This document shows positions 31,401 through 47,203 of a stretch of 64,000 nucleotides of DNA, piece after piece. A program made the translations under genes and the position numbers. The notes below the pieces were generated by a model. The model made no database searches. It had not been told where the DNA came from and was given only the letters and a program-made list of their open reading frames with translations. How positions within the stretch are numbered: position 1 is the stretch's first letter; the number at the start of each line of letters is the position of its first letter. This stretch comes from Gautieria morchelliformis (lineage: Eukaryota > Basidiomycota > Agaricomycetes > Gomphales > Gomphaceae), in assembly GCA_015179125.1 (NCBI GenBank), contig WHVA01000027.1, positions 1 to 64,000 on the forward strand, read 5' to 3'.

Positions 31401-32019
31401 ATGCCTCCTCGTACCACAGCTACTTCAGCTCGAGCAGGAGCTGTCGAAGCTCTCTCTTATTTTGGCAGTCTTAGATCTGCAGCACCAAGGCACGTGGAAC
31501 CCTCCAGCAGCTCTCATGCAGACGATGAGCTTTCCGACGCTATTCCACAACATTTCGAAGAGGTTCCCGACGCTAATCCCGATGACAATCCTGACTACGA
31601 CAGAAACTCGTCGAGTAGCAGCGGCGAACAAACAGCAGCATCATTCCGACGCCCAGCTCCACCACCACCACCACCACCACCTCCACCAGGACCACCTCCC
31701 GGCAGCCCTCATGGCGGCCCACCCGGCGGTCCTCCACCTCCAATTCCCGCCAACCCAGTTCCGCCCGCGCCAGTTCCAGATCTTGCACAAGCTATCACCA
31801 TGCTAGCCGGCCAACTACAGCGCCCGGCCCAAGCTCCACATCCCAAGACAAAGGTCCGTGAACCGGATCAATTCAATGGTTCCAACCCCAAGAAGCTCCA
31901 GCCTTTTTTGGTCCAGCTTCAACTCAACTTCTGCAATCGTCCCGACGCCTTTCCCAACGACAAACGAAAGGTCAACTATGCCCTTTCCTATCTCCGAGGC
32001 ATGGCTCTCGACTATTTCG
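31401..32019 (+). pseudogene. gag: Gypsy-3 Gag, N-terminal part
   Basis: It starts MPPRTTATSARAGAVEAL and contains a proline run (ten prolines near residue 90) and glycine-proline repeats. The capsid-like start is KVREPDQFNGSNPKKLQPFL, then VNYALSYLRGMALDYF. At DYF the frame runs into the left terminal repeat of the TIR element. It resumes at 46418, after the element. Confidence 0.88.
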
Positions 32020-32126
32020 TATGGAAAGCCGGACTGACCAGCTTCATTTTTAGCCGCCGCACCACTGTGTCAGTCGCAATTTATCAGCTGATGGGTTGGC
32101 ATGAACCCATAGACCCCAAAGACAGC
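32020..32126 (+). repeat. Left terminal inverted repeat of the 14.4-kb element
   Basis: It pairs with 46311-46417. The first 52 bp are identical and the rest about 85 percent by eye. It reads into gag of Gypsy-3 on its left. Confidence 0.92.
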
Positions 32127-32289
32127 TGTAGAGTAATACTCACCAGCTAAATATCCATGGAACACACTTGTCTCGACCCGGGAGTGGCCACGACACTGCC
32201 CATTTCACAGACGCTGCCCCTCTTTACGGCTAGTACAGTGTCATTGCTACCCTCAGCAACCACGACTCTGACGGTAGACTTGACGATCG

Positions 32290-32720
32290 TCACGTTCACC
32301 GTTCGTGCGTGCGGTTCCCATGCACTGTACGTGCATACAGCGGACGGTGCACGCGAACCATACGTGCATACGGTGGGATGGTTCCCGTGCACCGTACGTG
32401 CATACAGCGGACGATGGACGTGAACCGTATGTGGATATGGCAATGGTGCACGTGCACCAGACGTGCATACGGCATATGGTGGACGTGAACCGTACGTGAA
32501 GATGGTGTACAGTTCGAGTGCACCATACGTCAGGAGGGTGCACCGTGCCTGTGCACCGTATGTGCATACGGCGGACGGTGCACGCGAACCGCATGTGCAG
32601 AGGGCGGACGGTTCGCCTGCACCATTCGTGCATGCGGTTCCCGTGCACCGTACGTGGACACGGCGGTGGACGTGCACCGTACGTGCATACGGCTGACGGT
32701 GGACGTGAACCGCACGCCGA
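32290..32720. repeat. Degenerate palindromic minisatellite
   Basis: Units of roughly 42 bp combine GTGCACCGTACGTGCATACG and GGACGGTGCACGCGAACCG in variable order. Many units are near-palindromes (CCGTACGTGCATACGG type). The right end of the element lacks this array, so it expanded inside the left terminal region. ORFs across it on both strands are a by-product of a unit length divisible by three. Confidence 0.75.
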
Positions 32721-32989
32721 CTCACATCAGCTGGCAAGCGAGGCCACGCTCCTTTTCACGGGTGCGACTGAGAGGGAAGAAGACGACTTCCTCCTTTGCC
32801 GCAGGAAGGTTTGGTATTCGCGCTCAGTCCCAGAATTTGAACAAAGTATTCGGGAAGCACGATATCCATTTATTCTCATTCTGTTGTCCCCATTTATTTT
32901 CATGTGCTACTACAGATCAATGTGAACATGTGCCACTCTGTTATAAGCCACGACAAAAAGCATCGCTAAGTGAAATTAAAATGTACGCA

Positions 32990-33200
32990 AAGTGGATGTA
33001 AAACTGTACGATAAGTGAAATCAAAACTGTACAATGAAACACGAACAGGTCCGGTTGATTATAAGCCATCACAGAAATTAAAACAGTACGCTAAGTGGAA
33101 TCAAAACTGTACAGTGAAATAAAATCAGGTCCAGTTGATTATAAGCCATCACGGAAAATATGGCTAAGTGAAATTCAGTGTGCGGTGAAAACAAAATCCC
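32990..33200. repeat. Left subterminal repeats
   Basis: The motif AAGTGAAATCAAAACTGTAC with variants occurs three or four times, and GTTGATTATAAGCCATCAC occurs twice. Inverted counterparts lie at 45975-46110 and 46200-46220. Such arrays are the usual recognition sites of large-element transposases. Confidence 0.7.
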
Positions 33201-33210
33201 TGGTGGTGTG

Positions 33211-36044
33211 CTAATGCATATCTACCCCAGCGTCTTCTTCAAATGGCTCTGGGGCGAGCAGTCCAAAGTGAGCACAAAAGTGATTGCACTCATGTTGGTC
33301 TGGAAATGATCGGAACGCCGCTGCTACATTCCCCTGACTGAAGATTGCTGCCAGTGCCCTAATATGTCCAGCAACAGTATCTGTGTTAGCACTAGCTTCA
33401 GCATATTAATGATGCTCTCACGGGTGTGTCATGATCTGTGGGTCTGAAAGTAAAGTGTCGCCTCCTGTTACCAAGGACACACATTAGCATTTCACAGCTA
33501 GGGAGATTTCAAACCATGCCTTGGAAATCAGATACGAAAGCCAATCCACCTGTTTTCATCCATTGCACGTGCTGCGCAAAACACAGGAAGCATGCCAGGT
33601 TGTAATCTTGGCTCCCGCAATCCGGTAAAGGTTTGGCAGAGCCATTGTGGACAAATTTGCGAAACAAACCCTGGCTGGCATCAATCAACTGTTCCAAGAG
33701 CAAGGCCTTGGTTGCTTTGCCCTCTGTGTTCCAAATAATGGCCAGGCCAGCATTCACGAAGCGTACCTGGCCATGGAGAGTCAGTCTACATGAATCAGAA
33801 AGGTGACACCAGCACTTGCCTCTGGCACTGCAAAGCCTTCCTGGGACACTGCAGCTTTCCCCACATGGCGCTTCACAAAGCAATAGACCATATCCATCAG
33901 GGACATCGCCCAATACAGAGCCTTACCTTCACGGCCCATAATATCTACCTCATATGCCCCTGAAAAGTGTTTCACCCGGTCCTTCCCACGGATCGTCTCC
34001 TTGTAGTATGCTCGCTTGACTGCAATAGACTCATATGGGATCATTCCTAGTGCTGGAGGAACCAATGTCTGTGGGGCATCAAGGGATAATCGTCCTGGAT
34101 GGGCAGTTTTGAATGAGCCTGGTGGTGCCAGCTCGGTCTGTGGATCAGTATACAAGTGGCCGTGGTAAGCGTGGACACTGAAGTCGGGGGAAGGACATGA
34201 AGAAAGCATCTCATTGAACGCCTTCAACAAAATTGGGAAAAATTCAATTGCATGCTGCACCTCGGAGCCTTATTTAGACATGAACAAATACATCATGGAT
34301 TGAAAAGGCAGGTTCACGCACTGGGAAGTTTAACATTTGCCACCTGTTGTTGCAGCACACTGCGTAGGACTGCTCTATCTGGGGATTGCCATTCAGGACT
34401 GTTGGACTTTTTTGGGCGAGGAGTACATTCAGGAGATGTGGGCATTGATAGCTGCATTGTTACCTGGTCAATTATTGTGCAACAAACTTGCTGAACACTT
34501 ACTGGACGCTTGTGGGACACTCTGTGGGCCTGTCTGTCAGGAGCCGACTCAATGTCTGCATGGTAGAGGGAAGAAACATCAACACTGGGCATGGGGATCT
34601 GGGCAGGGAGGCGCTCATTAGCACAATTAGGAGATACACAGGTACACAGCTACCGGGACTTGATCCGAAAGGATACTGGTACGTGAGGGTAGTCCAGCAG
34701 ATTCCATGACAGAGGGCAAAACACTGGCAAGCTAATGAACGACAGGTAAGAATTCATGGTCTCCGTTTCAAACTCAATAAATGGACTTATACCTGGTGTG
34801 ATGATGGAGGCTTCCCAACATTGTGTAGAATCTGGGAGAGTGGAGGGGGACTCCATGTATCCGACTCTACAATCTCGGCTGGTGGGTCTAGGAACAATCC
34901 TGGATTGCCTCCAGGGCCCAGTGAAGACCTGCCCTATAATGCCCAACATGACCATAGAAGGCCGCACCAAATAGCAATCAGGTGTACATACCATGGGCTC
35001 CTGATTAGCTAGATGTTCCTGGATCTTGTCCCAATTGCGCGCAGTTATGACAAGTTCTACCTTCAGATTCCGGGGCTTGAATATCACCTCACCCGGTTTC
35101 TTGCCTGGGTGAAGGAAATAGTGGTATACCGCATCCATGTGGGGATTCGCGGCGTCGAGGTCCTCCCAATTATCCAGGGTCAGAAATTGGAGGTCCGAGA
35201 TGGCCAAGGGGAATGCTGGGGCGTATTCATGGAATTTGGGTATTATTTTGTCGTAAATCCTTTGTTTGAGTTTGATGGCGCCAATGCGTGCAGGGATACC
35301 TGCAAGGCCGAGTCGAATATTCTATTGAGATGGGGGGTGAGTTCACACACGCATCAATCACATATATAGTTGGCACATACCTCAACTAACTTGTTCTTGG
35401 TTCGTCCTGGTAGAGAATACGTCAGGTGCGCCAGCACGTGAATGAGTTCCTGTGGTTTGCGGTATGCCAGCGCAGCCGCTGTGGCTTCTTGATGTTCGTA
35501 GCACACGTGGTTCGCATTGTATCCCACGGCTGCAAAGGGTCCTTAGGTGAGCTCCTTGCACTGTATAGAGCCATGCACCCAGATCCGGTTCCGGTGGAGC
35601 GCGCACCACGCCCATGGCCTGTACGTGACTACTGGGTATATAAGGTGAGGATCAGCTAATATAGACGGGCATAAGTGGTCTCACAATTGCGCTGGGCTGC
35701 ATTGGTTTGCTGATGAATCCGCTCCACATTCACCTGGGGATATGTCACGTGCGCACTGTCCCTTGCGCGCACCTGGTCGCGATGGGTCGCGGAGGCTGTG
35801 TGAGTAGGTGAGCATGATTGGGACTGGTCTCGGGGTACTCACAGGCCACAAAGGTTGTGGGAAGCTGGATGGTCCGTTCGTAGCATGGTGAGCAGTACCA
35901 TCGCACCTGCGTCCCCTGAGGATTACTGACAGGGTGCCGTTTGGAGCCAGCAGGAAGTTGAGGGCTCGGACACGACCGCCGTTCGCAGACCAATAGAGAA
36001 GGGTTGTCATCTGCGAAGTCAGCCACCACATGACCGCTAGCCAT
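33211..36044 (-). CDS. Alpha-kinase (MHCK/EF2-kinase family) gene, multi-exon
   Basis: On the minus strand the start MASGHVVADFADDNPSLLVC opens a short Cys-containing N-terminus (CERRSCP and CSPCYERT, possibly zinc-binding). At least eight short introns are needed. The catalytic part begins after 34260 with IPYESIAVKRAYYKE and FSGAYEVDIMGREGKALYWA. It continues with RFVNAGLAIIWNTEGKATKA, then LACFLCFAQHVQ and FVSDFQG, and after a 60-70-nt intron GGDTLLSDPQIMTHP. The C-terminus GNVAAAFRSFPDQHECNHFC holds the alpha-kinase zinc ligands (H, C, C), ending GVDMH at 33211. Exon joins near 35540 are uncertain. The product should phosphorylate protein Ser/Thr residues, and its role in the element is unknown. 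Confidence 0.75.
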
Positions 36045-36049
36045 CTAGT

Positions 36050-36600
36050 GGGCCTTTTTTTGGCCATGGTTTCATGAGGATTGGTGCATGCCCGTTCATC
36101 AAAGTAAGCGTACTTACTTTTTTTTCGGAAAATCTGCCTTTGTGCTATTTTTGGCCAGGGTATCATGAGGATCGGTGCGTGCACGTTCATAAAAGCAAGC
36201 GTACTTACTTTGTAATAGCAGAAGCGGCGTCTGCGCGTCCTGTTCGGAAAATCTGCCTTGGCGCTGTTTTTGTGGCCATGGTATCATGAGGATCGGTGCG
36301 TGCGCGTTCATAAAAGCAAGCGTACTTACTTTTGAAGCGGCCTCTGCGCGTCCTTTTCAGAAAATCTGCCTTGGCGCTGTTTTTTTTGGCCATGGTATCA
36401 TGAGGATCGGTGCGTGCGCGTTCATAAAAGCAAGCGTACTTACTTTTGAAGCGGCCTCTGCGCGTCCTTTTCAGAAAATCTGCCTTGGCGCTGTTTTTTT
36501 GGCCAGGGTTTCATGAGGGTCGGTGCGTGCGTGTTCATAAATGTAAGCGTACTTACTTGGCCTCTGCGCGTGCTTTTCTGAAAGTCTGCCTTTGCGCATG
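36050..36600. repeat. Tandem repeats between the divergent kinase and integrase genes
   Basis: Five copies of a unit starting GGCCATGGTATCATGAGGAT and containing AAGCGTACTTACTT and CAGAAAATCTGCCTTGG, spaced 88 to 124 bp. They sit directly upstream of the kinase start codon and upstream of the integrase gene, so they may be promoter elements of both. Confidence 0.8.
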
Positions 36601-36624
36601 CTTGTCTGATACTGGATACAGTGA

Positions 36625-36728
36625 TGTGGACGTGGAACTCAAGCGGCGCAAATCATTCGAAAATCGTACGGCCTGAGATGGCCGTGCGATTTTCGAACGG
36701 CCTGCGCCGCTCAAGTTGCACGTCCACA
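36625..36728. promoter_or_regulatory. Large near-perfect palindrome at the integrase 5' end
   Basis: The arms 36625-36673 and 36680-36728 begin TGTGGACGTG and meet at ACGGCC around a 6-nt spacer TGAGAT. About 42 of 49 positions pair. It lies between the divergent genes and overlaps the likely start of the integrase transcript. Confidence 0.8.
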
Positions 36729-36733
36729 GCGAT

Positions 36734-38574
36734 GTCAGACAAACGGTCCAACCAGCACAAGCCCTGCCGTAAGTGTTGTGCCATCACCGGTGGGGGAAAT
36801 GCTCACACCCACCAGCCCCTCTGGATGAGCTTGCGCCCCACATTGAGAAGTACTATCGGATGCGTCTCACGGATACTGAGATGCTCGAGCATCTTCGGGA
36901 CCGGCATATTGACAAGACAAGGCATGGACTAAGGTATGTGGCTGTCCTACCTCCACATATGTGTACACTGATTCATGGAACTCATAGTCTCACATCCCTG
37001 AAACGAATGCGAAAGGGACTAGGTTTGGAAAGCACTCGGCAGCAGGCACATACCCTGGACACTGCGGCTGCGGCTCTGCTCCAGGTCCGATCTCGCTATC
37101 CCAAAGCGGGGGCAAGGGACATGATCACGCATGCATTCCGAGAGGAGCATATCAAGGTATCACGGTATGAGGTTCTTGTTTATCTTACACCCCAGTATGC
37201 TCAATATATATATATACATGCAGACGGGTGGTAAATGAATTCTTCCAAGAGTATGAGCCTGAAGGGATCCGAGAACACAAGGCTAAACGGCTCAAGCGAA
37301 GGCGATTCTGGGCAGCGGGGGTCAATGACATTTGGGCTATAGATCAACATGATAGTGGAAACGGTTCAATCTGTGGCTGCTGCACACTGGGATCGAGCCA
37401 TACAGTGGTTTGATACTATGGATGAAAGTATGGTGGACAAACAAAAACCCGCGCCTGATCTTGCACTACTATTTAGAACAGGCCTCTAGAATAGGCGGTA
37501 CATGCCTTCAGCACATTTCCATAGATTCCAATCGCTGATCACTCTTTTGCAGGAATCCCGATGGTTACGCAAAGCGATCCAGGGTCAGAGAACTATGGTG
37601 TGGCAAATGCCCATACGATATTATGGCACATGCTAGACCCATCGTTAGAAGGGACCCGTCAGCATCGATGGATGCGCAAACACAACAACGTCAAACAGGA
37701 AATCACCTGGTCTCAGCTGAGGAGGTGGTTCACCCCAGGATTTGAAGACCTCTTGGAGCAAGGAGCCCAGTCTGGCCTCTATGACCCAGACAACCGGCTC
37801 AATGCGTGAGTTTGTGCCATGCAAGCCTGACACCGTTCATTGACAATCTCCTCTAAATTAGTTTTCCGCTGGTTATTCATTCCGTGGTTGCAAGCGGAAC
37901 TGGATGCCTGGAAGGACACTCACAACACTGCCCCCAAGCGCGCTGACAAGAATAAAATCTTGCCGCATGGGCGCCCCCAACTGATTTTCGAGGCACCTCA
38001 CATGTATGATAGCATGGATTTTAAGGTATCTCATGCCAATTGTCCGTCGCTTTGTTCCAGAACTAATGCCATGAGGATCCCAGGTTGGAGTAACCCAGGA
38101 TGCCATTGAAGACATACGGGCATACTATGCGCCTTCACAAGATCCAGTATTCCACCTCGTCCCTCCAGATTTTGAACCGCTGGTTCAGCAGGTATACATT
38201 CGCATGGGGAGCCCGAGGATCGAGCGTGATAGCATATGGGAGATATATGCTAACATGGTCACTGGAGTGCGTGAGGTTTGTAACCTGACCCCACCTACTG
38301 CCTTGGAGGATGCCGTTGTAGGTTCCATGGGCCCCGCTTTGGAACTGGCTCCAGGACTTCATGAACTCGCCCATGGAGATGGAGAAGTCATGGAGGATGG
38401 CTTTTACTACATGGGGGGCCGGAATGATGACCCAATGCTGCTTCCAGCTGGCACTTCTGGTACTGATGACCCTTCAGATGCCGAAACGTGCGGACATGTT
38501 TCTGCTGGAAGTGGGATGGTTCATGCCCCCTTCTCTGATGAGGAGTCAGTAACTGCAGAGCCTATTGAATGGTA
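36734..38574 (+). pseudogene. Integrase-core DDE protein of the 14.4-kb element, one frameshift
   Basis: Six introns join MSDKRSNQHKPC to APHIEKYYRMRLTDTEMLEH, SLTSLKRMRKGLGLES and VNEFFQEYEPEG. They continue to FWAAGVNDIWAIDQHD (first D) and MVTQSDPGSENYGVANAHT (second D). The last exons give RWMRKHNNVKQEITWSQL (E), FRWLFIPWLQAELDAW and a C-terminal acidic tail ending EPIEW. The spacing is that of the fungal retroviral-type integrase core found in many hypothetical proteins. One base is missing right after IDQHD at about 37352, and the frame is otherwise open. The protein is the likely transposase of the element. Confidence 0.78.
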
Positions 38575-38632
38575 ACCACAGCTGCGGGTTGATAATAGAC
38601 AAACTGCACCCTTAGTACAATTGTGTATGTCT

Positions 38633-39363
38633 GTACAATTTCTATCAAGGCCACTGGTTTTTTTTGGGCCCGCCTGGTCAACTACAATTTCTATCAAGGC
38701 CACTTGGGTCTGATACTCAAGGGTCGGACCCGCCTGGTCAACTACAATTTCTATCAAGGCCACTCGTCCGATACTCAAGGGTCGGGCCCGCCTGGTCAAC
38801 TAGAGTTTCTATCAAGGCCACTCGGGTCCGATACTCAATGGTCGGGCCCGCCTGGTCAACTACAGTTTCTATCAAGGCCACTCGGGTCCGATACTCAATG
38901 GTCAGGCCCACCTGGTCAACTACAATTTCTATCAAGGCCACTCGGGTCCGATACTCAAGTGTCGGACCCACCTGGTCAACTACAATTCTATCAAGGCCAC
39001 TCGGGTCTGATACTCAAGGGTCGGGCCCACCTGGTCAACTACAATTTCTATCAAGGCCACTCGGGTCCGATACTCAAGTGTCGGACCCGCCTGGTCAACT
39101 ACAATTTCTATCAAGGCCACTCGGGTCCGATACTCAAGTGTCGGACCCGCCTGGTCAACTACAATTTCTATCAAGGCCACTCGGGTCTGATACTCAAGGG
39201 TCGGGCCCACCTGGTCAACTACAATTTCTATCAAGGCCACTCGGGTCCGATACTCAAGGGTTGGGCCCACCTGGTCAACTACAATTTCTATCAAGGCCAC
39301 TCGGGTCCGATACTCAAGGGTCGGACCCGCCTGGTCAACTACAATTTCTATCAAGGCCACTCG
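38633..39363. repeat. 60-bp satellite, first block (about 12 units)
   Basis: The unit contains CCTGGTCAACTACAATTTCT, ATCAAGGCCACTCGGGTCCG and ATACTCAAGGGTCGGGCCCG. It starts 59 bp after the integrase stop. Because the unit is divisible by three and lacks stops, three or more frames stay open over the whole block, including SRPLGSDTQGSGPPGQLQF and VALIEIVVDQAGPTLEYRT. These are not good evidence of genes. Copia-3 interrupts the array at ACTCG. Confidence 0.93.
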
Positions 39364-42300
39364 TGTAGAACGAAGGAGTAAATATGATCTGATATCCTCT
39401 ATTGATCTCAAGTAGATCGTTCCTTTATATACAAATTATAGTGTCCATTATATTACCAATCCCTTCGAGCTGCTGTGCCGATGCGATGCCGGCGCATCAG
39501 CAACCCGGGGTCGAGAGCGATCTCGAACCTCCGGCTAAATGCGTGCCGGCTCTGCCTCGGCAGTGTCATCGTTCCGATTACTAACACTCCCCCTCAGCGA
39601 GAAATCCTTTCGGTAAAATCCCAATTTCCCTAATAGATACCTATGTTGGTGCATGTCTAATCCCTTTGTAAATATGTCCGCTACGTTCTCCTTCGTTGGT
39701 ACGTATGTAAGTGATGCCTCGTGAGAGGCCACTTTCTCACGGATAAAATGATATGCGACATTGATGTGTTTGGTACGCGCATGATACGTTGCGTCATGCG
39801 ATAGTGTAATGGCGCCTAGATTGTCTGATCGAAGTGACGTGGGCTGGGTTTGATCGATTCCAAGTTCCTCGATGAAACGTCTCAGCCAGATTAATTGCTT
39901 GGCGCCCTCGGTAAGTGCCATGTATTCGGCCTCCGTGGTAGATAGCGCGATCGTTCGCTGCTTCTTCGAGCTCCATGCAATGGTTCCTCCTCCTAGCATA
40001 GCTACATAGCCACTAATAGATAGTGCGTCGTTTCTATTAGCATAATCCGAGTCGACAAATATTTCGAGGTCGAGACCAGCGTCTCGTCGGAATGTTATGC
40101 CGTCGTCACGTGACCCTTTGAGGTACCTGAGCGCGTGTTTGATCGCCGTCCAGTGCTCGGGTCCATAAGTAGTAGTGAATTGGCTCAAGTGTTGTACGGT
40201 AAAAGCCAAATCAGGTCGCGTGCTGAGTGCTGCATACATGAGTGATCCGATCGCTTTGGCATAGGGTACTTCGGCAGTTGGACCTGTTGAGTCCATGGGT
40301 GTCGTGAGTTTGATCATTTTATGCAGGGGTGTAGATACCGAATGAGCCGTTGTCATGTTGAATCGATCGAGTATGATGTCGATGTAATGTCCTTGAGACA
40401 TGATCAGTGTTCCCTCATCCCTATTCCTCTCAACTCTGATTCCCAAGATTTTCTTCATTTCTCCTAAATCTGTTAAAGGGAATTTCCCATGAAGCTCCCC
40501 TTGAGCTTAATCATCCCTCCCTTGGAGTCAGCAAATAGTCCGAAGTCGTCCACATATACTGATATGACTTCGATTGAGTCCTTATCTTGTCTGATGTAGA
40601 CGCATTCATCGGCTGTACTTTGATGGAAGCCGAGATCGAGTAGTAATTTGCGTAAGCGCTGATGCCAAGCTCGCCCCGATTGCTTGAGTCCGTAGAGCGC
40701 TCTGTATATTCTTAGAACGCGTCCAGATCCATCGTCAAAACCGTCGGGCTGGCGCATGTAGATCTCCTCATCTATGGTTGAATTGAGGTAGGCGCCTTTG
40801 ACATCCATCATTTCGATTTCCCAATCGAGTGTGTTTGCGATCGCCAATAGAACACGTAGTGAATCGAATTTGACCACGGGTGAAGTTATCTCGTAGTAGT
40901 CCATTCCTGGCCTCTGTGTGAATCCTTGAGCCACAACCCTTGCTTTAGCCTTATCAAATTGTCCATCCGGTTGCGTTTTGACGGCGTATACCCATCGGCA
41001 ACCGATAGCTATTCGTCCGGGTGGTAGTTCTGTTAATTCCCATGTTCTTAACGTTTTGTGTTGTTCCATCTCAATTTCCATCGCTTTCTCCCAGATCGGC
41101 GCATCATCACGTGATACCGCCGCTCTGTAATTCTCAGGTTCAGTGACGATTTCTCTCGTTATGTAAACCTGCTCGGTGCGTCCTGAATTATTCAGTTTCC
41201 GGTAATCCGGCCTTTGAGTGATACGCGCGCTCCGTCGGATCTCTGGAGCTGGCGCTTGTTCAGGTGGATCAGGAACGGGTGTCGTGTGGGGTGATGACGT
41301 CTGTGGGGTAGATGTGATCGGGTCCGGCACATGCTCGCGCGGTGAGTGCTCCCCCTCGAGCGGTGCCGTGTCATCATCGTCGTTGTCTGGGATAGGGTAG
41401 AGTCGGTTGTCATTTTCGTCGAATGTGATATTTCTCGAAATTTGAACATGTTTTGAGGCTTTATTGTAATACCTCCATGCTTTTGCATGTTCTGCTACTC
41501 CGACGAAGATGTGTTCTTCTGCCTTTGGATCAAGTTTAGCTCGTCGTTGATCCGGCACCATAACCCAACAATTTGTCCCGAATTCCTCTAGACGTGCTAT
41601 GTTCGGCTTCTTGCCGAATAGTGCCTGGAACGGCGTTGCGTCATCTCCAAGCGCTCGCGTGGGTGATCGGTTTTTGATGTAACACGCGTAAGCCACGGCC
41701 TCGGGCCAGAGTATTTTAGGCAGGTTCTTGGCAAATATCATTGCCCGTGCGTGCTCGAGTAAGGTTCGGTTGAGTCGTTCGGCGATTCCATTCTGGGCTG
41801 GGGAGTATGGAGCTGTGGTCTCCATGATAATGCCATATTTTGCACAAAATTCCTTGAAATTTTTATTGACATATTCCCCTCCATTATCTGAGCGAAACCT
41901 CTTCAGTTTCTGACCTGTTTGGGTCTCGAGGAATGCCTTGTACGTCTCGAAGTGTTTGAGCGCTTCATCTTTGGCGCTCCCAAAATAGATGACCGTGTAC
42001 CTCGATTTGATGTCCGTGAAAGAATAAAAATACTTTTCACGTGATGGTCCCTCGGTCTGGGCAGGTCCCCATACATCGGATACTGTCAGGTCACCGACCT
42101 GTTCTACAGTGTCCTCGGCTCTTTTGGGGAATGGCTCCACATGCCGTTTGCCTTGTATGCATGCCTTGCACTGGCTCGGCTCGTTTGACTCGTCGATCTC
42201 GAGTCCAGTAACTAGGTTGTTAGATTTCAACAATTTTATGGAGTTTATGTTGACGTGCCCTAGTATCCTGTGCCATTTATCCCATGACCGTCCCTTTGCC

Positions 42301-43858
42301 GCTGCGGCAAAGTCCCGTGCCTCGACTGATCGAGTGACCCGTGCCTTCATACAGAACAGCCGCCCGCGCTTCTGTCCCTGTGCAAAGGTAACTCCGGCGC
42401 GTGATTTGAATTCGACGCCGGTGCCTGAAAAAGTGGCTGTGTTGCCCTTATCAGTCAGACGCCCTACGCTGATAAGGTTGTTCGGCGCATCCGGTGCATG
42501 CTTGACGTCACGTAGCTCGATCGTGTTCGTCTTGGCGCCGATCTTGAATTCCATGTATATAGTACCTCGGCCTTGTGTATGTAGTACCGCGCCGGGTGAA
42601 ATTCCTTCGATTTCCGATGGTTCCTCGGCATAGCTAGCGAAATCATTTCGGCTTCGAGCTATATGTGTTGTTGCCGCTGAATCGGCTAGCCAGTCGGATG
42701 CGGATATAGCACTGTATGCTACCTCCTTAGATACAAATGCGAAGTCTTTTTCTTCTGCTTGTTTGACTGTTTCTTTGTTCCCTGATTTGAACCATTTCGG
42801 TGCTTGGCCTTCCTTGCCGCCACCTTTCGCCCAACAGTCCTTCACGTAATGACCCTTCTTGCCGCAATTTCGGCACTTTCCCTTTGTTGCTCCTGAGTCA
42901 TCTTTCCTGGTCCTGTGACGTTGTTGCGCCTTAAGCGCCGTCTGCCGTGCCGATCCAGCTTTCCGTGCTCGATCCTCATCGAGGACCCGAGCTATTAATA
43001 TATCAGCTGTTGTCCCGGCTCCACTGGCATTTACTGCCGTAATAAATGCCGACCAAGAATCTGGTAATGACGTCAGCAACGTGTTCGAGAACTCGGTGTC
43101 ACTGATGTAATGCCCCCGTGCATTCAATTCCTGTTGAATGCCGCGGAGCTTGCGTACGTGCTCCTCCATGTTCGCGCCGTCTTCGGCAAGCGTTCGGAAG
43201 AAATCTCTTCGGAGATTTACAATCCCCACTGCTCCCTTTGATTCGAATATTGCTTGTAGACTAGTCCATACAGCAAACGCAGACATCGTCTGATTGATGT
43301 AAACTAGTTGTTCATCGGCAACTCTGAGGCAAATTTCTTTTCTAGCCTTCTTGTCCTTCCTTCTCCAATCGTCGATCTCCTGCTGTTCGGTCGCAGTGAC
43401 GTTGTCGGCATCTGCCGGTCTCGGTTCCGTCTCCCTGCCGATAGCCACGTCCCACAGATCTGAGTCATCGAGTATCCACTCGAGCCGCCGGCGCCACGCC
43501 GCGTAATTATCCCCGTTCAAGGGATCGATCTTGTACGTGTTATTGCTACTCGACATCGTTGATCGGTATTGAGTTATTGGAGTATGGAGCGTAGTTAGAT
43601 TTGTAGTAGTTTAGTTATGCGCGGGGCCCATAACCTGTAGAACGAAGGAGTAAATATGATCTGATATCCTCTATTGATCTCAAGTAGATCGTTCCTTTAT
43701 ATACAAATTATAGTGTCCATTATATTACCAATCCCTTCGAGCTGCTGTGCCGATGCGATGCCGGCGCATCAGCAACCCGGGGTCGAGAGCGATCTCGAAC
43801 CTCCGGCTAAATGCGTGCCGGCTCTGCCTCGGCAGTGTCATCGTTCCGATTACTAACA
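39364..43858 (-). mobile_element. Copia-3, young Ty1/copia retrotransposon
   Basis: The two 223-bp LTRs (39364-39586 and 43636-43858) appear identical by eye and the duplication ACTCG flanks them (39359-39363, 43859-43863). The primer site GGTTATGGGCCCC follows the 5' LTR on the minus strand, and a polypurine tract GCTGAGGGGGAG precedes the 3' LTR. The element sits in the 60-bp satellite. It is the most recent large insertion in the window. Confidence 0.95.
39606..43556 (-). pseudogene. gag-pol: Copia-3 Gag-Pol polyprotein, intact but for one frameshift
   Basis: From MSSSNNTYKIDPLNGDNYAA the 1027-residue frame holds gag, a CCHC knuckle CRNCGKKGHYVKDC, protease WLADSAATTHIARS (D-S-A), GAG-pre-integrase WHRILGHVNINSIKLLK, and integrase with DIKSRYTV, RSDNGGEYVN and APYSPAQNGIAERLNRTL. 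RT follows with YLNSTIDEEIYM and ISVYVDDFGLFADS. In a run of four Gs (40497-40500) one base appears to be missing, so the frame ends at 40473. RT and RNase H continue in the next frame from 40458 (EMKKILGIRV, VDSDYANRNDALSISGY, THK-like ENVADIFTKGL) and end at about 39606, just inside the 3' LTR. A sequencing error is possible. Confidence 0.9.
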
Positions 43859-44044
43859 ACTCGGGTCCGATACTCAAGGGTCGGACCCGCCTGGTCAACT
43901 ACAATTTCTATCAAGGCCACTCGGGTCCGATACTCAAGGGTCAGGCCCGCCTGGTCAACTACAATTTCTATCAAGGCCACTCGGGTCCGATACTCAAGGG
44001 TCGGGCCCGCCTGGTCAACTACAATTTCTATCAAGGCCACTCGG
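43859..44044. repeat. 60-bp satellite, middle block (3 units)
   Basis: Three units of the same 60-bp repeat lie between Copia-3 and the next solo LTR. They rejoin the first block across the ACTCG duplication. Confidence 0.93.
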
Positions 44045-45319
44045 TGTCAAGATTGGTTTTTAGGCGTTAATGTCGTGTATTAGTGAACACAGCGAATGCC
44101 CGAATAACTTGTGCGAATAAGTATGCCGTTCGGCGAATAAGTGAACCGACGAATGTTCACGAAACAAGAGGGTTGCCCGAACGGGGCTCGCCCTATCTAC
44201 AGTCATAGCGAAATAGCTCGCAGCACTTGACGACGTAGCGTGCAAGATATTGCGGAAGGGCTGTCTAAGTTTCGACGGTCCCTTCGCTGGCGAAGGTGCT
44301 CCTTCAGAGCCCTTCGCCAACAGCACAGAAAGTGGTTCGAAGGCTAAGGTAACGAAGATGAAGTATGAGAACTCACCAGTGATGCCTAAGTCCTTGGCTG
44401 GTTGAAGATAGAAATCTTCAAGGGGGGGCTCAAGACAATGATCACAGCAAGGTCAGGTTTGCACAAGATGGACGACGTATGATAATTGAACTGGGGAATA
44501 TACATGCGAATGTAAACTACTTATATCAAATACTCGTACGGTGTCAGCGAATAGGAAAGAGGCCGTCACGAGTCAGGGTTGGATAGGGGTGCGCAGTCAT
44601 GATACTAAGGAGATGGAATAAACATACAATAGAGTGAGGGAAGAATGCGAACATGAAACGACGGAGAGTAAAAGGGGGCGAAGGCACTTATGGACAAAAC
44701 CATGTCTTGGGACCCGCATACATGCTACCCTGCACGGACTCTTGGTCTACTGGGTTGATTCCGCACAGCCTATGGAGGGGATGTCCTGCGAACATACTTT
44801 GACCATACGAACGCCCAATGGGGTTGGATTTAAGAAGACGATGGGGTTAATGATGGACCTTCATGCCGGGTGAATGGTATCGATCGTTTTTGATGGTGTG
44901 CCTGCTGGCGAATGATGCGAGCAGCGAATAGCCGTTCGGAGAAATGCAAGGAAGGGCGAACAGAGGTGACATAGGGGAGGAGAGGTCGAGGTGGTGGGCG
45001 AAGCCGAGCGAACACTGAGGAGGAGTAGCGAAAGGGAAAATGGGGATACCAAGGTGCAAGAAATGCACAGGTCATGACAACCCAACTATTAGGACGCCAT
45101 CGGAAGAGGGTCGAGCAGAGGAGGTGGTAGGCCCAGTGATGACTGCCGAGTCAGTCCCAGGACGTCGATAGTGCGTTTGATGGCGCGGCTATGGTAGTTG
45201 GCGCAAACAGCGAGAGTTGGTTGCCGAACATAACAATGGTGATCGGAACGAACACGAAGGTGGGGTGAGAAAATAGGAAAACTGAGCTTCTGAGTATGGG
45301 AGATAAACCCGTCATGACA
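44045..45319. repeat. Solo LTR of the TGTCATGAC family in the satellite (1275 bp)
   Basis: Ends are TGTCAAGATTGG and CGTCATGACA, with the duplication CTCGG at 44040-44044 and 45320-45324. It is about 240 bp longer than its relatives. The extra part (45080-45319) repeats the terminal GTCATGACA, which suggests a secondary insertion or a longer subfamily. Confidence 0.88.
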
Positions 45320-45854
45320 CTCGGGTCCGATACTCAAGGGTCGGGCCCGCCTGGTCAACTACAATTTCTATCAAGGCCACTCGGGTCCGATACTCAAGGG
45401 TTGGACCCGCCTGGTCAACTACAATTTCTATCAAGGCCACTCGGGTCCGATACTCAAGGGTCGGACCCGCCTGGTCAACTACAATTTCTATCAAGGCCAC
45501 TCGGGTCCAATACTCAAGGGTCGGGCCCGCCTGGTCAACTACAATTTCTATCAAGGCCACTCAGGTCCGATACTCAAGGGTCGGGCCCGCCTGGTCAACT
45601 ACAGTTTCTATCAAGGCCACTTGGGTCCAATACTCAAGGGTCGGACCCGCCTGGTCAACTACAATTTCTATCAAGGCCACTCAGGTCCGATACTCAAGGG
45701 TCGGGCCCGCCTGGTCAACTACAATTTCTATCAAGGCCACTCGGGTCCGATAGTCAAGGGTCGGACCCGCCTGGTCAACTACAATTTCTATCAAGGCCAC
45801 TCGGGTCTGATACTCAAGGGTCGGACCCGTACAATTTCTATCAAGGCCACTCGG
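45320..45854. repeat. 60-bp satellite, last block (about 9 units)
   Basis: The array continues and ends abruptly in a shortened unit against kinase-derived sequence at about 45855. The full array before the two insertions had about 24 units. Confidence 0.93.
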
Positions 45855-45960
45855 TTTGCAATCATTTCCAGGCCAACACAAGTGCTATCACTTTTGCACT
45901 GACTTTGGACAGTTTGCCTCAGAGCCATTTGAAGAAGACACTGGTGTAGATCTGCAGTAG
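45855..45960 (+). pseudogene. 3'-terminal fragment of a second, inverted alpha-kinase copy
   Basis: The plus strand reads SFPGQHKCYHFCTDFGQFAS, then EPFEEDTGVDLQ and a stop. This parallels the main kinase C-terminus (SFPDQHECNHFC, GVDMH) at 33211-33320 on the other strand. Only about 35 codons remain before the satellite. The terminal inverted region of the element therefore included the kinase 3' end on both sides. Confidence 0.75.
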
Positions 45961-46417
45961 CACATGACCAGGGTTTTTTTTTCACTGCACACTGAATTTC
46001 ACTTAGCCATATTTTTTGTGATGGCTTATAATGCAACAGGACCTGTTATTTGTATTTATTTTATTTTATTTTTCACTTACAGTTTTAATTTCACTTAGCA
46101 TACAGTTTTAACTTCACTTCACGATCTTTTTTGGCCTATACCGGAGTAGCACATGATCAAATTTTTATTCATCGTACACCTTTATTTCACCCCAAGACTG
46201 TGTACAGTTTTAACTTCACTTAGCGATCTTTTTTGGCCTATACTGGAGTAGCACGTGATCAAATTTTTATTCATCGTACACCTTTATTTCACCCCAAGAC
46301 TGTGTTTATTATGATGTCTGGGGTCTAAGGGTTCATGCCGACTGATCCGCTGATAAATCGTGACCGACACAGTGGTGCGGCGGCTAAAAATGAAGCTGGT
46401 CAGTCCGGCTTTCCATA
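45961..46417 (-). repeat. Right terminal region of the 14.4-kb element
   Basis: The outer 107 bp (46311-46417) pair with the left end. Inside lie subterminal motifs AATTTCACTTAGC and ACAGTTTTAACTTCACTTAGC, and a roughly 105-bp direct repeat containing GATCTTTTTTGGCCTATAC (about 46120 and 46223). Segments at 45965-46050 are inverted counterparts of 33120-33210. Confidence 0.85.
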
Positions 46418-47203
46418 ATTTTGAACCCGCCCTCATGGATCCGTTCGGCACTCATCGACTGGGCTGACGATTATCACAATTTCATTTCCGAACTCCGCAG
46501 CAACTTCGGACCATTTGATATGGAAGCCGATGCGGAAAATGAACTCGATAAGCTTCGTATGAAAGACACTCATAAGATAGCTAAATACATCGTCACTTTC
46601 CAGCAGCTTGCTCCTCGAGTCCAATGGGGAGAAGCCGCACTCCAACGCCAATTCTACATGGGCTTGCCATCCCGGATCAAGGATGAAATTGCCCGCGTCG
46701 GAAAACCCGCCACTCTTACCGACCTCTGCAACCTTGCCCAATCCATCGATTCGCACTACTGGGAAAGACATTCCAAGATCGCTTGCGAAACTTCCGCCCA
46801 GAGCAAGAACGACAAGTCCTCCGACAAGAAGTCTGATAAAGACAACAAGAAGACCAATTCCGGAAACAACAACTCCAGAAACAACAACAACAACAACAGT
46901 TCCGGGTCCAACTCCGGCAACCGGAACAACACCACACCACACAACAACCAGGCCTCTGGTTCCAACACCAATGCCTGGAAGAGCACTCCGGACCTTTCCA
47001 ACAAACTTGGGAAGGATGGAAAACTAACCCCTGCAGAACGCCAGCGTTGCATGGACAACAACCTTTGCCTTTTCTGCAGCAAAGGCGGTCACGTCGCTCG
47101 CGATTGCATCCGAGCTTCTGCTTCCGCTGCCAAGGCCAAGGGCCACGCGGTGAAGACGGAAGAGAAATCTGAAGCGACTCCCATTACGGATGCAAAAAAA
47201 TAG
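46418..47203 (+). pseudogene. gag: Gypsy-3 Gag, C-terminal part with zinc knuckle
   Basis: After the 6-bp duplication the frame reads FEPALMDP and then needs a small shift near 46440 to enter SALIDWADDYHNFISELRSN. The capsid C-terminus AALQRQFYMGLPSRIKDEIA is followed by an asparagine-rich linker and the CCHC knuckle CLFCSKGGHVARDC. It continues the gag cut at 32019. Confidence 0.87.

Follow-up and report, generated by a model that had tools for sequence, protein, structure and literature searches.

The window analyzed here, 64 kb from the start of contig C304 in the 122-Mb genome of Gautieria morchelliformis, contains a transposon of 14.4 kb (positions 32020–46417) that encodes an alpha-kinase and an integrase-type DDE transposase. 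Copies of this transposon are named by their contigs, C304 being the window copy and C215, C420, and others being loci elsewhere in the same genome. The terminal inverted repeats (TIRs) of the window copy, the left one (32020–32071, plus strand) beginning with TATGG and the right one at 46366–46417 (minus strand), are exact inverted matches over 52 bp, as had been noticed in the first-pass annotation of the window, and they are 92% alike over 99 bp. Most other copies also have ends of the form TATGG..CCATA, while the C215 copy begins with TATGC at one end. The unit is inserted in a Gypsy gag gene, where the flanking hexamers ATTTCG (32014–32019) and ATTTTG (46418–46423) share five of six bases; thus, the site of the 6-bp target duplication was described correctly before, but the duplication is not a perfect one. 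Removal of one of its copies in silico makes the gag reading frame continuous across the junction, and a few codons beyond the junction the target gag carries an independent frameshift. Subterminal repeats, likewise anticipated, are present on both sides: an array of ~33-bp repeats at 32313–32725 and repeats with the motifs TAAGTGAAAT and AAAACTGTAC at 32941–33199, the latter being inverted with respect to the right-side repeats at 45971–46305, which include a 102-bp tandem pair.

Between these repeats lie two divergent, intron-containing genes, separated by a region with 114-bp tandem repeats (36122–36597), and profile searches confirmed the assignment of both. The gene on the minus strand (33211–36044) encodes an alpha-kinase. 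Its spliced exons match the Pfam family Alpha_kinase (PF02816) with an E-value of 1.4e-6, the annotated protein P0121 matches it at 9.5e-11, and the matching domain is in the C-terminal part. The exons at 34266–33820 and 33769–33518 could be placed exactly, while the 5' limit of the gene is the first ATG as read here, the start of P0121 lying further in. The Asp residues of the SDFQG and SDPQI motifs and the HxCxxxC zinc motif, which we take to be typical of active alpha-kinases, align with those of eEF2 kinase and myosin heavy chain kinase A, although the E-values are marginal (0.0099 at best). The predicted model of the kinase is poor overall (mean predicted local distance difference test score, pLDDT, of 52.5) and better in the kinase part, and in a fold search with this model, each of the 41 significant matches was an alpha-kinase fold (best E-value 2.6e-7). 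Similarity to eEF2 kinase and myosin heavy chain kinase A includes the fold and, within the C-terminal part, the catalytic and zinc-motif residues; the differences are that the window gene resides in a transposon and that its product is only 12–18% identical to the solved structures that gave significant fold matches. Nine non-host proteins, including one of Ganoderma leucocontextum, match the kinase at 33–48% identity.

The gene on the plus strand (36732–38575) encodes the transposase. Its spliced exons match the rva_4 integrase core (PF24764) with an E-value of 6.7e-13, and the annotated protein P0001, which begins at 36624, matches the same profile at 3.6e-6. D169, D225, and E266 are conserved in an alignment of 22 sequences, the third residue of this triad being our assignment. 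As the transposase reading frame is disrupted in the window copy, this copy looks no longer active; the transposase frame of the C215 copy appears to be broken as well.

Searches of the genome with 107 bp of either end as the query returned at least 40 scored matches, and several copies of the element, located at different sites, support the earlier proposal that the integrase-type protein and the alpha-kinase belong to one mobile unit. Closely related integrase sequences occur at six loci (C304, C215, C179, C960, C420, and C604), and a kinase is nearby at each of them. Both ends are present at four of the six (C304, C215, C420, and C604); the C960 copy runs off its contig, and at C179 one end was recognized in the stretches read. 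The C215 copy, 7,835 bp long, is flanked by exact CAGAAC duplications. Among 14 pairs of ends, five have exact 6-bp duplications, two have five and two have four matching bases of six, and five have two or fewer. In a control of mismatched left and right ends, one of 182 pairings was exact and two matched at five of six bases; the exact pairing (C265) and one of the other two (C193) look like true outer pairs. At C265:17344-49339, the outer ends of neighboring copies share an exact duplication, GTTTCA, and the inner ends share none, and at C193:424561-427933 the outer ends share a duplication with five of six bases alike and the inner ends again share none, as if the copies had been rearranged after insertion.

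Six short copies (C193a, C193b, C255, C743, C215a, and C526) of 1.25–2.1 kb have a common deletion junction, in which window position 33031 is joined to 45916. The ends and the subterminal repeats remain in these copies, but both genes are gone; three are flanked by exact 6-bp duplications, one by a duplication with four of six bases alike, and the two C193 neighbors have none of their own. Since these copies are gene-free yet dispersed, we infer that they were moved by proteins of the family made elsewhere, that is, in trans. In three other copies (C265b, C892, and C493), a portion of the kinase gene is left and the integrase gene is absent. Such copies are what might be met if the kinase were passive cargo, a captured host alpha-kinase of no benefit to the transposon.

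The ratios of nonsynonymous to synonymous substitution rates (dN/dS) speak against passive cargo. Between the C304 and C215 subfamilies, dN/dS is 0.15 for the kinase (interval 0.09–0.24, 353 codons) and 0.15 for the transposase (0.11–0.21, 436 codons, which do not include the first coding exon, as it was not recovered, or any codon with a gap or stop). Nine of ten kinase pairs with C215 give values of 0.11–0.26; the exception is C422, with 0.89 (0.42–3.65) over 126 codons. Past purifying selection on the kinase is thus equal in strength to that on the transposase. Pairs of recent copies scatter with wide intervals (kinase 0.18–2.51, with one value undefined; transposase 0.44–1.15) and do not reveal clear constraint on the kinase, which would be compatible with a passenger; such scatter is also what decay after insertion would give. 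We regard passive cargo as improbable and as the least likely of the roles considered for the kinase. In the same pair of subfamilies, the synonymous divergence (dS) is about twofold higher for the transposase (0.66) than for the kinase (0.31), and this inequality between two genes of one pair hints at recombination, which suggests an exchange of gene halves between the subfamilies.

The kinase also accompanies a second transposase. Weak matches of the window transposase led to a distant transposase lineage with 54 loci, whose later exons score 42.8 bits against a profile of 22 window-type integrases and whose exon with the first Asp matches such a profile weakly; Pfam did not recognize the pieces of this transposase that were tested. 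At 29 of the 54 loci, a PF02816 match lies within 5 kb, as compared with 0.2 expected by random placement, and at the remaining 25 there is none within this distance. The two genes are arranged tail to tail at 26 of the paired loci, divergently at one, and on the same strand at two. These loci are copies related by descent, and the 29 pairings are therefore not separate events. An element of this lineage, C1048:89655-94436, has inverted ends beginning with TAGAGTGCGC and is flanked by AGCTATG, a duplication of 7 bp; two other end pairs, C160 and C342, were read with both outer flanks, and these flanks do not match. The ends of the second lineage are of the TA..TA type but differ from those of the window family. 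The first-pass annotation had named the occurrence of both genes between unrelated ends as evidence against a single mobile unit. Such pairs do exist in the second lineage, but its transposase is distantly related to that in the window, and we therefore read them as the same kind of element and not as a refutation. The pairing of kinase and transposase thus extends beyond a single family and a single gene order, and this, together with the presence of the kinase in rust families of related transposons, is a further argument against passive cargo. The selection on the kinase and its occurrence with two distant lineages in one genome bear on the question of whether the kinase serves the element.

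Alpha-kinase sequences of the whole genome point to the same association. At least 57 matches to PF02816 were found (46 by the profile and 11 added loci; these are exon-level matches, and their number is a lower bound), and a transposon link could be assigned to 38 of them. Twenty-eight have a locus of the second transposase lineage no more than 5 kb away, six are by a window-type integrase, two are inside pairs of ends (C265b and C892), and two (C715 and C422) have one end at a distance of at most 2 kb, while no link was assigned to the remaining 19. Alpha-kinases counted as fungal host genes may therefore often belong to transposons. A strong expansion of the family in rusts has been described, with the figures 79 and 39 in two columns of a table (PMC4469406). 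In the accessible parts of the open-licence literature, we found no ascription of fungal alpha-kinase expansions to transposons. Reports that count these genes as host expansions deserve to be rechecked.

The ends, the 6-bp duplications, and the opposed gene pair of the window element are published traits of the IS3EU (IS3EU/GingerRoot) superfamily, and the earlier claim that no described superfamily is built from both an integrase-type protein and an alpha-kinase therefore does not hold. Elements of IS3EU, as described in the available text of PMC10045372, have TA..TA termini and usually 6-bp duplications and have been in Repbase since 2013, and in fungal IS3EU the transposase and alpha-kinase genes are in opposite orientations, according to the accessible sections of PMC12730594. 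The window family has TA..TA termini in the fungal form TAYGG..CCRTA, 6-bp duplications, an integrase-like DDE transposase, and the divergent alpha-kinase gene of the TET-bearing IS3EU elements. IS3EU sequences are also reported, in the part of PMC8955403 available, as commoner in G. leucocontextum than in other Ganoderma. On the basis of these published descriptions, we assign the element with considerable confidence to fungal IS3EU DNA transposons with a maintained, divergent kinase. Membership in another superfamily with integrases, Ginger or Polinton/Maverick, is highly improbable, as TA..TA termini with a kinase partner are the published signature of IS3EU. In addition, exact duplications in the window family are of 6 bp, as opposed to 4 bp in Ginger1 and 4–5 bp in Ginger2 (as given in the accessible text of PMC10045372). 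No polymerase gene was noticed in the list of open reading frames, which was inspected by eye only and not by a profile search; Polinton/Maverick elements carry a protein-primed DNA polymerase and capsid genes.

By analogy with its family, the transposase would recognize the 52-bp ends together with the subterminal repeats, cut the element out, and insert it into target DNA that is cleaved with a stagger of 6 bp, a value deduced from the length of the duplications. The kinase would be a working partner encoded by the same unit rather than idle cargo, and by phosphorylating either the transposase or a chromatin or repair protein of the host, it might license transposition or counter silencing. 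The likeliest role of the kinase, and a reasonably probable one, is to control the transposase or the chromatin of the element. The second-ranked and rather unlikely role is an action on host physiology, e.g., on growth or signaling, that would aid the host or the spread of the element and not transposition. Alpha-kinases such as eEF2 kinase and myosin heavy chain kinase do have cytoplasmic targets. Moreover, PMC4150398 includes one alpha-kinase gene in a list of 46 rust proteins that are candidates for diversifying selection. The recurrent pairing with transposases in two gene arrangements is explained more simply by a role for the element.

A wider proposal, namely, that fungal IS3EU elements have long carried the alpha-kinase as a gene under selection, present in deep lineages and two gene arrangements and controlling transposition or silencing, and that the reported fungal host expansions are mostly transposon genes, is put forward tentatively, its chances being slightly below even. 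Several observations weigh against the reading of the element as an IS3EU transposon with a maintained kinase. Half of the end pairs (7 of 14) have no duplication with at least five matching bases, and the predicted transposase model is poor, with a moderate fold match. A group of at least 152 PF24764 matches, which lies on C130, C670, C139, C154, C152, and other contigs, has no PF02816 within 5 kb of any of the matches listed, the nearest being 28 kb away. Styx of Zymoseptoria, which is assigned to IS3EU, in the accessible text of PMC10853768, has four open reading frames with transposase, GATA, CCHC, and DUF3577 domains, and no alpha-kinase is named there, which would also be in line with passive cargo. 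Some relatives thus do without the kinase.

The boundaries of the 14.4-kb unit proposed earlier were confirmed, but its length is swollen, as a 60-bp satellite and a Copia element nested in the unit account for much of it; the C215 copy accommodates both genes in roughly half of that length. The satellite occurs in blocks at 38666–39363, 43859–44044, and 45318–45829, with matches of 94–97% within blocks, and is also present in C420 and C604. The Copia long terminal repeat (LTR) retrotransposon (39364–43858, minus strand) has identical 223-bp LTRs of the TG..CA type and is flanked by ACTCG duplications. Its position inside the satellite, itself inside the transposon, and the identity of its LTRs indicate that it inserted later and recently and is not part of the transposon proper.

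Among known elements, the closest counterparts of the window family are those described in the available text of PMC12730594. The TET-bearing IS3EU elements of rusts and Tuber share with it the 6-bp duplications and the opposed transposase and alpha-kinase genes, and the rust families share the TAYGG..CCRTA ends and TIRs longer than 30 bp (52 bp, perfect, in the window). In contrast to the window family as recognized here, the rust and Tuber elements carry a TET/JBP gene that separates transposase and kinase; the TET/JBP profile PF12851 had no match in the whole Gautieria genome, and none in any control genome either. IS3EU/GingerRoot elements, as far as the accessible part of PMC10045372 shows, resemble the window family in TA..TA termini, usually 6-bp duplications, and the integrase-like DDE transposase, but the word kinase is absent from the main text of that paper. 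Styx is likewise a TIR element with an IS3EU-type transposase, for which packFinder was run with a duplication length of 6 bp, according to the available text of its description. The superfamily and the gene pair are thus already described, and what the Gautieria elements add to them is the selection on the kinase, the second transposase lineage, and the share of alpha-kinase matches that show a transposon link.
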